Positions 37,013 to 48,305 of a stretch of DNA of 57,302 nt are shown one piece after another (the first letter of the stretch is position 1; each line of letters starts with the position of its first letter). Position numbers and translations under genes: made by a program. The DNA comes from an uncultured Candidatus Actinomarina sp. (lineage in GTDB: Bacteria > Actinomycetota > Acidimicrobiia > Actinomarinales > Actinomarinaceae). The stretch spans positions 1 through 57,302 of the forward strand of contig CACDQN010000007.1 in NCBI GenBank assembly GCA_902555055.1, written 5' to 3'. A model generated the notes under the pieces. That model did no database searches. It saw only the letters and a list, made by a program, of their open reading frames with translations, and was not told the origin of the DNA.

Positions 37013-38278
37013 GTGATAGTTGAAAACAACCTCTTTGACTCACATATGTATACAGAAGTCATCAGGCAATATGATGAAGTTTCTGATTTGATTAATCTTG
37101 ATTCAAATATTCAAGAAAGACTCAAACTTCCGCAAAGGTCTCTTGTTGTGTCATTTCCATTTAGAAGAGATGAGTATGATGAAGTTGAAACGGTTATGGG
37201 CTATAGGGTTCAACATGTACTTTCAATGGGCCCTACTAAAGGTGGTATAAGATACGCACCAGATGTTAACTTAGGAGAAGTAACAGCTTTAGCTATATTA
37301 ATGTCTTGGAAATCAGCTATTGTTGGACTTCCTTATGGTGGTGCTAAGGGAGGGGTTGCTATTGACCCAAATCCATTAACTCGTTCTGAAAAACAAAGAG
37401 TAACAAGAAGATACACAGCAGAGTTACTTCCTATTATTGGCGTTGATAAAGATGTTCCTGCTCCAGATCTGGGAACCGACGAACAAACAATGGCATGGAT
37501 TATGGACACTTACAGCAACTTTGTTGGTTCGCCACAACCCGGAATTGTTACAGGAAAACCAGTATCTTTAGGCGGATCTATTACTAGGAGAGAGTCTACA
37601 GGAAGAGGAGCAATTGCAGTAGGCGATGCTGCCATGAAAAAAATGGGTAAGGAAATTAAGAACTCTAGAGTTGTTGTTCAAGGCTTTGGAAATGTAGGAA
37701 GATACGCGGCACTAGATTCATATGAAAGAGGCGCAAAAGTAATTGCTGTAAATGATTTAGGTGGAGCTGTAATAAATGAAAATGGTTTAAATATTCCTGA
37801 ACTGTTTAAGCATATTGCAAAAACTAATACAGTAAATGGTTTTAATGGAGGGGAATCTTTAGATGGAGCAATCCTGGAGGTTGATTGTGATGTTCTTATT
37901 CCAGCAGCAGTTGGAGGGGTCATAACTTCCAGTAATGCTGAAAAAATAAATGCAAATGTAGTAATAGAAGGTGCAAACTCACCTACTACATTAAATGCTG
38001 ATAAAATTTTAAGAGAAAATGGTACTTTAATTATTCCCGATATTTTGGCAAATGCCGGTGGTATTACTGCAAGTTATTTTGAATGGGTTCAAAATACTCA
38101 AAATTATTTATGGAAAGAAAAAGAACTTCATGAAAAATTAATAGATGTAATGATTACGGCCTTTGAAGAAGTGTGGACAATATCTCAAAAACAAAATTGT
38201 GACTTAAGAACAGCTGCACTTATTAAAGGAATTAAGAGGGTTGCAGCCGCAAAGCTTACTAGAGGTCTATTTCCTTAA
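37013..38278 (+). CDS. gdhA: Glutamate dehydrogenase (Glu/Leu/Phe/Val family)
   Basis: 421 aa hexameric-type enzyme interconverting glutamate with 2-oxoglutarate and ammonia. MGPTKGGIRYAPDVNLGEV and LPYGGAKGGVAIDP carry the substrate lysines, APDLGTDEQTMAW the following motif, VVQGFGNVGRYAA the dinucleotide site and EGANSPTT the late conserved block. GTG at 37013 starts the frame; an ATG 33 bases later is possible. Resembles the NAD type of archaea and Gram-positives. It could feed or drain the 2-oxoglutarate used by the GabT-like aminotransferase at 40508. Confidence 0.92.
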   Translation: MIVENNLFDSHMYTEVIRQYDEVSDLINLDSNIQERLKLPQRSLVVSFPFRRDEYDEVETVMGYRVQHVLSMGPTKGGIRYAPDVNLGEVTALAILMSWKSAIVGLPYGGAKGGVAIDPNPLTRSEKQRVTRRYTAELLPIIGVDKDVPAPDLGTDEQTMAWIMDTYSNFVGSPQPGIVTGKPVSLGGSITRRESTGRGAIAVGDAAMKKMGKEIKNSRVVVQGFGNVGRYAALDSYERGAKVIAVNDLGGAVINENGLNIPELFKHIAKTNTVNGFNGGESLDGAILEVDCDVLIPAAVGGVITSSNAEKINANVVIEGANSPTTLNADKILRENGTLIIPDILANAGGITASYFEWVQNTQNYLWKEKELHEKLIDVMITAFEEVWTISQKQNCDLRTAALIKGIKRVAAAKLTRGLFP

Positions 38279-39238
38279 AAGCTCTTGAAGGTCTTCTTCA
38301 ATATGATCTCTTCTGTTTTTTAATGTATCAATATTTTCCTGGATTTCTTCTTTATTAACAGTACTTAGTGGACTACCTTCTGGTAAATCACTAGGATTAT
38401 CAAACATGCTCAAAGCTTCTAAATTATCATTTAGCTCTTTTATTTCTTCATTAAGTTTTTTCAATTCATCAGTATCTGGGGCATTTTCGTTAAACACAGG
38501 ACAAATAGGTTTGTAGTAACACCAATCACACAAATTATTTTTTGTAGCAGGAAAATCATTTTCTTTAAATGCTTTCTTAATAGCTTCCCAAATTTCTATT
38601 ATTTCTGATTTTGCTTTAGTTAGGTCTTCATCACTTATCTTTAACGTATGGATAGTTGAATTCTTTAGATAAATTAATTTCAATTCAGCTGGCATTTCAT
38701 TTAGTTCTTCTTTGATAAGTAATGCGTATAATTTCAAAGCAAAGAAGCGCGGTTCTTTATATTTTGCCATAGGAGCTTTACCACTTTTATAATCAACAAT
38801 CACTAATTCGCCCTTATTATTTCTATCCATTCTGTCTAGGATTCCTCTTAAGTTTAGATCTTCGATTGAACCTCTAACCCATCTCTCCCTTTCAAGAGGT
38901 TCAAAACTAGTAGGGTCCTCAATTTGCATATAGTTATTAAGTAGCTTTAATCCATCTACACCCCAGTCTCGTTCTTCTTCAACACTTTCAAATAGATTAT
39001 GGTGCTCATCGTTACTTCTAACTTTGGTCCAAGCATCTCTAAACAAATTATGAAGTTTTTCAGTTGTTCTTTCAGATTGTGGAAGATCAAATAAGTCCTC
39101 TAAAGCTTGATGAACTGTAGTACCTTTAGCTTGAACTTCTGTTGTAGGTTCACTAATTTTATCAATATTTGCATATTTAAACTGTCTTGGACATGTTTTA
39201 AATTGAGATGCCCGGGAGGGTGACAAATTTTTTATCAT
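38267..39238 (-). CDS. RecB-family PD-(D/E)XK nuclease with Fe-S cysteines
   Basis: 323 aa. A Cas4/AddB-like nuclease: SPSRASQFKTCPRQFKY at the N-terminus, GILDRMDRN and LVIVDYKSGK forming the PD-(D/E)XK site (about residues 133-154), and four cysteines, Cys16 plus Cys237-x2-Cys240-x5-Cys246, as in iron-sulfur-stabilised AddB/Cas4 nucleases. A C-terminal coiled coil (about 258-323) is an addition of unknown use. No CRISPR array is nearby, so a repair exonuclease is likelier than Cas4. TATAGT at 39245-39250 lies six bases before the ATG. Confidence 0.85.
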   Translation of the reverse strand: MIKNLSPSRASQFKTCPRQFKYANIDKISEPTTEVQAKGTTVHQALEDLFDLPQSERTTEKLHNLFRDAWTKVRSNDEHHNLFESVEEERDWGVDGLKLLNNYMQIEDPTSFEPLERERWVRGSIEDLNLRGILDRMDRNNKGELVIVDYKSGKAPMAKYKEPRFFALKLYALLIKEELNEMPAELKLIYLKNSTIHTLKISDEDLTKAKSEIIEIWEAIKKAFKENDFPATKNNLCDWCYYKPICPVFNENAPDTDELKKLNEEIKELNDNLEALSMFDNPSDLPEGSPLSTVNKEEIQENIDTLKNRRDHIEEDLQELLRK

Positions 39239-46181: not shown

Positions 46182-46216
46182 AAAACTTTCTTAGGCGCAA
46201 AATGTGACTAAGAAAG
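46182..46216 (-). terminator. Terminator of the rpmB-photolyase-Ddn operon
   Basis: Nine-base perfect inverted repeat CTTTCTTAG (46186-46194) and CTAAGAAAG (46208-46216) with a 13-base loop. Read leftward it is followed by TTTTG, giving a short T-run. The right arm overlaps the stop codon of the Ddn-like gene. It also lies after the rightward HAD gene, for which it lacks a T-tract. Confidence 0.6.
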
Positions 46217-46651
46217 AGTCAGAACTAAAACAGGGATTTTTCTATTTGTTAGTTCTTGATAGGATGAGTAACCACCACGATTCATAAAGTCCATTTTTTC
46301 CCACCACTCTTTTCTTTCTTCATCGTAAACTTCTCTAGAGTTTGCTTCATAAGTATCACGACCAATTTGAATTTTACATTTTTCTAATTTTTTAAGATTA
46401 TGATACCAACCTGGATTATTCTTATTTCCGCCTTTAGATGCAATTAAACAAATCTCATTACCTTCTCTAAGAAATACTAAGACATTTTTTCTTTCTAATT
46501 GTGTTTTAGCACCTTTAGTATGCAATATTAAACATGGTCGATTGTTTAAAAACTTACCAAATCTTCCGTCTGAATAAATATATATATAATTATGAAAATA
46601 TAAAAAAACAAAAATTGAATATCTTCTAATTTTTTTAAAAAAACTTTTCAT
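46208..46651 (-). CDS. Ddn-type deazaflavin (F420)-dependent nitroreductase family protein
   Basis: 147 aa. RPCLILHTKGAKTQLERKNVLVFLREG, then ASKGGNKNNPGWYHNL and an acidic RKEWWEKM segment are the signature of the Rv3547/Ddn split-barrel group that binds F420. The N-terminus is hydrophobic and basic (KSFFKKIRRYSIFVFLYFHN), as in membrane-associated members. It overlaps the photolyase-like gene by four bases (ATGA), so the two are made together; quinone reduction or deazaflavin handling are options. Confidence 0.85.
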   Translation of the reverse strand: MKSFFKKIRRYSIFVFLYFHNYIYIYSDGRFGKFLNNRPCLILHTKGAKTQLERKNVLVFLREGNEICLIASKGGNKNNPGWYHNLKKLEKCKIQIGRDTYEANSREVYDEERKEWWEKMDFMNRGGYSSYQELTNRKIPVLVLTLS

Positions 46652-47847
46652 ATGGTTAATTTAATTCTTTTTTTCCAACTACTAAAACTATTTGGATAAA
46701 ATTCAATTGGCTGAACCAGTCTTTGTGCAGGAAATTCATATAAAGGTTTATTAATTTTTGTTATTTTCTTATATTTAGGAACTGGTGCAAAAGTAGATGC
46801 AAATAATTTATTTTTTAAATAAATTAATGGATCATCAATTACTACTGTTAGATCTCTTTTTAGCGAAATTTCTTTTAAACAATCTAGTAAAAAATTAATT
46901 CTTTTTGTTGAGATTTTTAAACTATTTAATAATTTTTTATCAAATATAAAAACAACAGGCAAGTTGGAAAAATATTTCATTGATGGATCATCATCTCCCA
47001 GAGACTCAGCTGTTATCCAAACAAAATCTGGATTTTTATTATTAGTTTTAATTTCTTGTGGTCCAAAATTTTTATAAACATCAGTTACTACATCAATATT
47101 TTTTTTTGTAATTTCAATACTTTCCGGCCAGTCATTTATCGGGCAGTTGAAATTTAGATCGCATTCATCGCAGAGTTTTTTAGCTCTTTTTTGAACTTGG
47201 AATTTTGAAAATCCGTAAACTTTTCCTGTTTGAGATCCCATTACCCAGTGCCAACCTAATCTATTTGCAAATCTCGAACCATCAACCAGATGTTTAAACA
47301 TATAATTCTCATAATTATTCCAATCTCCACCATCTCGTATTGAAAAATGAGAGGCAAACCACATTCTTGTTTGATTCACCATATATCCTGTTTCTTCTAA
47401 TTCCTTTTTAACTGTATTTATACAATTCATTTTTTCAGTATTTGTATTTTTACTATTGATACTATTTATTGAATAATTTAGGTAATTTTGGGATTTTTTA
47501 CCAACAATCGCATACAAATGTCTTGAAAATTCTTGCCAAAGTAGTTCGTCTCTATATTTTGTTTTATCCTCATATTTAAATTTTTCTACATATTTCCATA
47601 CTTCCTTTAAATCAATTAAGCCGTGTCTTATATATGCGGATAAATATGATGATCCTCTTTTTGATTTCGGATACACATTATTTCTTAATTTTGCATAATT
47701 TGAAATATCTAGATTATGTAAAGCCAGGTCTGCATTTGATTGACCACCTCTTATTAAGGGTTCAGTGTATTTATCACAACATAAATCTAAAAAATTAGAA
47801 TTGATGATTTCTTCATTAGATAATTTAAGATTGATTAAAGACATCAA
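46648..47847 (-). CDS. Photolyase-like protein with permuted domain order
   Basis: 399 aa. Residues about 25-240 are a photolyase FAD domain: IRGGQSNADLALHNL, RGSSYLSAYIRHGLIDL, ELLWQEFSRHLYA, NQTRMWFASHF, DGSRFANRLGWHWVMG and TGKVYGFSKFQVQKRA. Residues about 274-350 look like the Rossmann antenna domain, which is normally N-terminal (VWITAESLGDDDPSM, LPVVFIFD, DDPLIYLKN). Three cysteines, Cys226-x2-Cys229-x5-Cys235, lie at the junction with Cys23/Cys24 possibly nearby in space. It probably repairs UV damage in DNA or senses light. Operon: rpmB, cold-shock-like, this gene, Ddn-like. Confidence 0.8.
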   Translation of the reverse strand: MMSLINLKLSNEEIINSNFLDLCCDKYTEPLIRGGQSNADLALHNLDISNYAKLRNNVYPKSKRGSSYLSAYIRHGLIDLKEVWKYVEKFKYEDKTKYRDELLWQEFSRHLYAIVGKKSQNYLNYSINSINSKNTNTEKMNCINTVKKELEETGYMVNQTRMWFASHFSIRDGGDWNNYENYMFKHLVDGSRFANRLGWHWVMGSQTGKVYGFSKFQVQKRAKKLCDECDLNFNCPINDWPESIEITKKNIDVVTDVYKNFGPQEIKTNNKNPDFVWITAESLGDDDPSMKYFSNLPVVFIFDKKLLNSLKISTKRINFLLDCLKEISLKRDLTVVIDDPLIYLKNKLFASTFAPVPKYKKITKINKPLYEFPAQRLVQPIEFYPNSFSSWKKRIKLTI

Positions 47848-47853
47848 CTAAGG

Positions 47854-48069
47854 TTAATATTTATCTTGTCCAATTTTAACATTTTTAATAACCTGGATAT
47901 CTTCAACAGTTTCTAATTCAAAGTTAATTCTCTGACCCTGACGTAAAGTTCTAAATATTGAACCCTTAAGTGAACCAGCAGTAATAAAAACTTCAGTTTT
48001 ATCTGTATCTAATAAGATTATTCCATTGCCAGTGTTTGGATCGTAGGATTTAACAACACCTTGAGCCAT
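47854..48069 (-). CDS. Cold-shock-domain-like small protein
   Basis: 71 aa single OB-fold of cold-shock type: GVVKSYDPNTGNGIILLD, VFITAGSLKG, LRQGQRINFELE. The aromatic RNP1/RNP2 residues (KGFGFI and VFVH in CspA) are eroded to NGIILL and VFIT, so nucleic-acid binding may be altered. Its start shares a base with the rpmB stop (TAATG), and the photolyase-like gene starts 6 nt after it. Confidence 0.75.
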   Translation of the reverse strand: MAQGVVKSYDPNTGNGIILLDTDKTEVFITAGSLKGSIFRTLRQGQRINFELETVEDIQVIKNVKIGQDKY

Positions 48070-48305
48070 TAAACTTTTTCGCCTCTTTGACGTATTTCTT
48101 TAACAACAGACTCAATACCTCGTTTGTCAATTATTTTATTTCCACGAGTGCTGACTTTTAGTCTTACCCATCTATTTTCACTTTCTAACCAGTATCTCTT
48201 GGTGATAATATTTGGTTTGAACCAACGGTTATTTCTTTTATGTGAAAAAGAGACATGTTTACCTGACCTTGGCTCTCTTCCTGTTACTTGACATCTATTT
48301 GCCAT
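48069..48305 (-). CDS. rpmB: 50S ribosomal protein L28
   Basis: 78 aa. MANRCQVTGREPRSGKHVSFSHKRNNRWFKPN is the standard L28 start, read here in parts, and the basic tail RGNKIIDKRGIESVV closes the protein. A GAGGAAA Shine-Dalgarno precedes the ATG. It is divergent from recG, as in many actinobacteria, and leads the photolyase operon. Confidence 0.93.
   Translation of the reverse strand: MANRCQVTGREPRSGKHVSFSHKRNNRWFKPNIITKRYWLESENRWVRLKVSTRGNKIIDKRGIESVVKEIRQRGEKV

Follow-up and report, generated by a model that had tools for sequence, protein, structure and literature searches.

The question raised by this locus is whether an open reading frame of Candidatus Actinomarina encodes a photolyase whose two domains stand in reverse order and, if so, which DNA lesion the enzyme would repair. 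The original prediction, made from a stretch of 57,302 nucleotides (the window), placed a FAD domain first and an antenna-type domain last. This order was borne out, by Pfam and PDB matches in the N-terminal part and by hhalign and fold matches in the C-terminal part, and the protein is very probably an inverted member of the photolyase family. Our proposal as a whole, to which we assign a probability of roughly 55%, is that it would be an inverted, light-driven photolyase with a [4Fe-4S] cluster and an antenna-type Rossmann domain that repairs cyclobutane pyrimidine dimers (CPDs).

Ca. Actinomarina are small-genome marine actinobacteria, and named Actinomarina records carry close copies (61–90% identity). 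The photolyase reading frame is uninterrupted and begins with a TTG codon. Codon 2 is an ATG in each of the 25 Actinomarina copies aligned, and this ATG is the likelier translation start. The gene is the third of an operon-like run in which gene ends overlap or nearly touch:

48069..48305, minus strand: ribosomal protein L28 gene, first of the run (PF00830, synteny)
47854..48069, minus strand: cold-shock domain protein gene, directly upstream of the photolyase (PF00313, synteny)
46648..47847, minus strand: coding sequence of the inverted-topology photolyase (399 codons, likelier start ATG at 47844)
46208..46651, minus strand: F420H2-dependent quinone reductase family gene (PF04075, E = 4.5e-32, synteny; 4-base overlap with the photolyase stop)

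By synteny this run is kept across the genus Actinomarina and not outside it, where the photolyase has neither a conserved neighbour nor a signalling partner. The photolyase gene is present in 35 of 42 Actinomarina genomes. In five of the remaining seven (G004, G008, G010, G017 and G024; loci L185–L189 and L193–L197) the cold-shock and reductase genes are adjacent: their matches lie 1 to 22 bases apart and no photolyase intervenes. For the other two genomes the locus itself was not found. The photolyase is thus an optional gene at a fixed place in Actinomarina, and the five genomes that lack it at a locus intact in other respects are natural knock-outs whose ecology can be compared. We also considered an obligate functional link between the photolyase and its operon neighbours, which is unlikely given that the run is confined to the genus and that the flanking genes adjoin without the photolyase in these five genomes.

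The swapped order is not the novelty that the original prediction implied, since inverted topology has already been published for NewPHL/SPL and, with the same four cysteines, for Phr4/Phr5 and Phr6. The latter, from marine Synechococcus and Cyanobium (Haney et al. 2022, PMC9426592), resemble the Actinomarina protein in placing the FAD domain first and the antenna domain last and, going by the published description, in having four Fe-S cysteines with a C-x2-C-x5-C motif. Like the actinobacterial and Deinococcus kind, they occur in one-gene or two-gene forms. They differ in being cyanobacterial and in the repair assigned to them: their authors favour (6-4) repair, inferred from the Fe-S cysteines, whereas the pocket described below is of the CPD type. 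Disruption of phr4 in strain RS9916 lowers UV-C survival 20–30 fold, and the protection of E. coli by phr4/5 does not differ significantly between light and dark (PMC9426592). NewPHL, SPL and Phr7 (Emmerich et al. 2020; Xu et al. 2021), as cited in PMC13274461 and PMC9426592, are also inverted with the FAD domain first but differ from the Actinomarina protein, with its four invariant cysteines, in lacking Fe-S cysteines; in those citations NewPHL/SPL are given as having no Fe-S (Emmerich 2020), and PMC9426592 states the same of the cysteines of Phr7. Later papers credit NewPHL/SPL with CPD repair in single-stranded DNA.

The prokaryotic (6-4) photolyase FeS-BCP/PhrB (4dja) shares the four Fe-S cysteines, by way of the published comparison between Phr4 and PhrB, but has its antenna domain first and a histidine pair in its pocket. 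That antenna domain is of another family, PF04244, for which Pfam returned no match in the Actinomarina inverted protein or the homologues scanned and which is found elsewhere in the genome. Class I CPD photolyases (A. nidulans 1owl, E. coli 1dnp) have the FAD fold, the CPD pocket and a homologous antenna domain in common with the Actinomarina protein, and differ from it in having the antenna first and no Fe-S cysteines. In the literature searched, inverted Fe-S photolyases are described in cyanobacteria only, with none from Actinomycetota or Deinococcus; nor does that literature assign C142 in these groups or raise the CPD-type pocket against the (6-4) assignment.

The features of the protein that bear on its function are as follows:

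47128..47775, minus strand: FAD catalytic domain, residues 25–240, Pfam core 100–225 (PF03441, E = 2.5e-9; PDB sequence and fold matches)
47245..47547, minus strand: stretch with the lesion-pocket residues E101, W104, N158, M162 and W201 (class I alignment and conservation)
47422..47424, minus strand: Cys142, proposed first Fe-S ligand (invariant)
47143..47172, minus strand: Cys226-x2-Cys229-x5-Cys235, proposed remaining Fe-S ligands (invariant; spacing as in Phr4 C254/C257/C263)
46651..47028, minus strand: antenna-type Rossmann domain, residues 274–399 (hhalign P = 94% against class I antenna domains; model and fold search)

In the Pfam scan nothing precedes the FAD domain, and in particular no antenna domain lies N-terminal of it. 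Solved class I photolyases match residues 59–205 in a phmmer search against the PDB, and the FAD domain was also recovered by fold search and by comparison of the genus profile with PDB sequences. Alignment with class I enzymes revealed that the FAD contacts Y51, S67, L69, S70, D189 and N195 are kept, while all actinobacterial rows have Ser191 in place of the contact made by D382 of A. nidulans. Of the three tryptophans in the class I electron chain, the first two align with W199 and W176. No counterpart of the third appears in the alignment, and the invariant W163 is a candidate for this position.

All five residues of the class I CPD pocket (E, W, N, M and W) are conserved across the phylum, and the (6-4) histidine pair is absent, with V157-N158 at those positions. 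Because of this, and because the genome encodes a separate PhrB-type protein, the pocket predicts, with moderate confidence, CPD rather than (6-4) repair. A CPD-type pocket would run against the inference of Haney et al. that Fe-S implies (6-4) repair. The alternative that survives best follows that inference and holds the protein to be an inverted enzyme of (6-4) repair, the function proposed for Phr4/5 on account of their Fe-S cysteines. It draws on the four cysteines, which are those of the (6-4) enzyme PhrB, and on the observation that loss of phr4 matters after UV-C and not after UV-B (PMC9426592). We consider it unlikely: N158 and M162 stand where PhrB-type proteins have their histidine pair region (GYIHHIPRLM), the genome's PhrB-type protein already has the histidines, and the relatives described as Fe-S-free, NewPHL/SPL, are reported by later papers to repair CPDs.

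A cryptochrome-like light sensor or redox protein with no part in DNA repair is a less probable alternative still. Ser191 in place of a common FAD contact and the missing distal tryptophan would fit such a protein, as would the clean absence of the gene from five genomes that keep its neighbours. The conservation of the whole pocket across the phylum argues against it, as does the absence of any conserved neighbour, or of a signalling partner, beyond the genus, and we regard a sensor or redox role as quite improbable beside the predicted CPD photolyase.

Four of the seven cysteines of the protein (142, 226, 229 and 235) are invariant in 25 genus rows, 26 class-level rows and 26 rows from the phylum search. 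The original prediction had likened Cys226-x2-Cys229-x5-Cys235 to an iron-sulfur site and had offered Cys23 or Cys24 as a possible fourth ligand. The first part stands, as all three cysteines are conserved in the genus, class and phylum and Fe-S is the best reading of them. Cys23 and Cys24 vary outside Actinomarina and were rejected as ligands; the invariant C142 takes their place. It stands immediately before the conserved stretch eLeetGymvNqtRmW, a position that we take to be the site of the first Fe-S ligand of PhrB. The C-x2-C-x5-C motif arises in 30 of 20,000 composition shuffles. In number and spacing the four cysteines match C169, C254, C257 and C263 of Synechococcus RS9916 Phr4, with the first cysteine 84 residues upstream here and 85 in Phr4. 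Deinococcus proteins have the same four cysteines, with a last gap of x6 in three proteins and of x3 in the one from strain QL22.

This pattern suggests, with good confidence, that the four cysteines hold an Fe-S cluster. That they instead bind zinc, or nothing, might be argued from the structure prediction: the full-length model (pTM 0.82, pLDDT 78.5) has a weak stretch at residues 230–238, where the proposed cluster would sit. The number, order and spacing of the cysteines are nonetheless those of Phr4, which its authors matched to PhrB (PMC9426592). All four are also invariant together, and an absent cluster is very unlikely. The same cysteine spacing had been noted by the original prediction in a PD-(D/E)XK nuclease at 38267–39238 (minus strand), which gave a Cas4-type match (PF12705, PF01930). 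An Fe-S cluster is a common feature of Cas4/AddB-type nucleases, and for that reason this spacing is probably unrelated to the photolyase.

The C-terminal domain gave no Pfam match in the Actinomarina protein or in 25 homologues. Pfam therefore failed as a way to find this domain in all 26 members, and profile-profile and fold comparison were needed. With the genus profile, residues 274–329 align with residues 7–68 of a cryptochrome, within its N-terminal antenna domain (E about 0.016). When the C-terminal domain was compared by hhalign to the antenna domains of class I enzymes, the score was 49 with P = 94%, and the Deinococcus equivalent gave P = 98%. As controls, 30 column shuffles reached at most P = 2% and a score of 19, a reversed profile gave 0.2%, and changing the target to the FAD domain of class I enzymes gave 0.1%. 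An AlphaFold2 model of residues 264–399 (pLDDT 90) was compared with PDB folds using Foldseek. Class II photolyases were matched with probabilities of 0.96–1.00 and a TM-score of about 0.5 over 131–142 columns, a modest value that the trimming of the domain might explain, and PhrB with a probability of 0.92; among the 50 matches listed, only class II photolyases and PhrB reached a probability of at least 0.9. An unrelated Rossmann-like domain, which would make this a case of antenna replacement rather than swapped order, could appeal to the blank Pfam result and the modest TM-scores, but is highly improbable given hhalign probabilities of 94–98% against at most 2% in shuffles, photolyases as the confident fold matches and the alignment of the genus profile with a cryptochrome antenna domain. 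Both domains compare to photolyase domains by sequence profile and by fold, and their order is swapped. About 70 actinobacterial homologues share the FAD-first order, as do the Deinococcus proteins.

Taken together, we propose an N-terminal FAD catalytic domain, a [4Fe-4S] cluster on C142, C226, C229 and C235, and a C-terminal antenna-type Rossmann domain that would pack on the FAD domain and close the flavin site. The C-terminal domain perhaps carries F0 (8-HDF) as antenna; this is possible because F420 production has been reported for the order that includes Actinomarina and the neighbouring gene belongs to an F420-dependent family. Light-excited FADH- would give an electron to the CPD, upon which the dimer would split and the electron return. 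The Fe-S cluster would have a structural or redox-tuning role. The substrate predicted from the pocket is the CPD, perhaps on single-stranded DNA, and not the (6-4) lesion. Several points count against this proposal: Ser191 at a FAD contact, the lack of a third tryptophan and the low-confidence model at the motif. The lack of significant light dependence in the protection of E. coli by Phr4/5, and the preference of its authors for (6-4) repair, also count against it.

Homologues that cover the full length are present in many genera of the class to which Actinomarina belongs, as well as in further families of the phylum Actinomycetota. On Deinococcus plasmids there are one-gene inverted forms of about 456–472 amino acids, and a plasmid of Deinococcus sp. 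QL22 (L126:2998-4289) has a FAD gene followed by an antenna gene, in the inverted order and with a four-base overlap, annotated as "FAD-binding domain-containing protein" and "hypothetical protein". A Deinococcus query matches actinobacterial proteins over both domains (up to residues 17–443 of 456; E down to 9e-38). The Actinomarina protein belongs with the published inverted four-cysteine kind, which now extends to Actinomycetota and Deinococcota. Alphaproteobacterial plasmids encode inverted proteins without the four cysteines, which are probably NewPHL. These putative examples have a CPD-type pocket in common with the Actinomarina protein and differ in a far more diverged C-terminal Z-domain (4% in hhalign against class I antenna domains). 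The other phage-record and plasmid matches examined, from Acinetobacter, Thermus and Klebsiella, were ordinary class I photolyases with the antenna first, and the viral contigs scanned contained no relatives. In a tree of the FAD domain the inverted groups fall on one side and class I with the class II row on the other (94/90). Because long-branched PhrB-type rows sit among the inverted groups, the tree neither shows nor excludes a single origin of the inverted form.

The inverted Fe-S photolyase is thus common among Actinomycetota and also found in Deinococcus, encoded by one gene or by two, and this wider spread makes the association between Fe-S cluster and lesion type testable. A further consequence concerns the idea that "short" photolyases without an N-terminal antenna represent the ancestral state, since a related domain can lie at the opposite end of such a protein or be encoded by the adjacent gene. 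Only tentatively do we suggest that inverted Fe-S photolyases may be a class of CPD-repairing enzymes widespread in bacteria (Cyanobacteria, Actinomycetota, Deinococcota), that Fe-S would be no marker of (6-4) repair, and that Actinomarina may have the pairing reversed, with the cluster in the CPD-type enzyme and a (6-4)-type enzyme without its cysteines. The PhrB-type photolyase of the same genome (L184, G000:C1:141369-145025) has the (6-4) histidine pair and lacks the Fe-S C-x2-C motif. Among the Actinomarina genomes that the class search listed or matched, none gave a class I antenna match. Actinomarina also encodes a divergent photolyase of about 500 amino acids (L062:1310-2833, plus strand; G000:C2:35499-36968), which matched no Pfam family at E 0.01 and is probably class II; in G034 it adjoins a rhodopsin gene.
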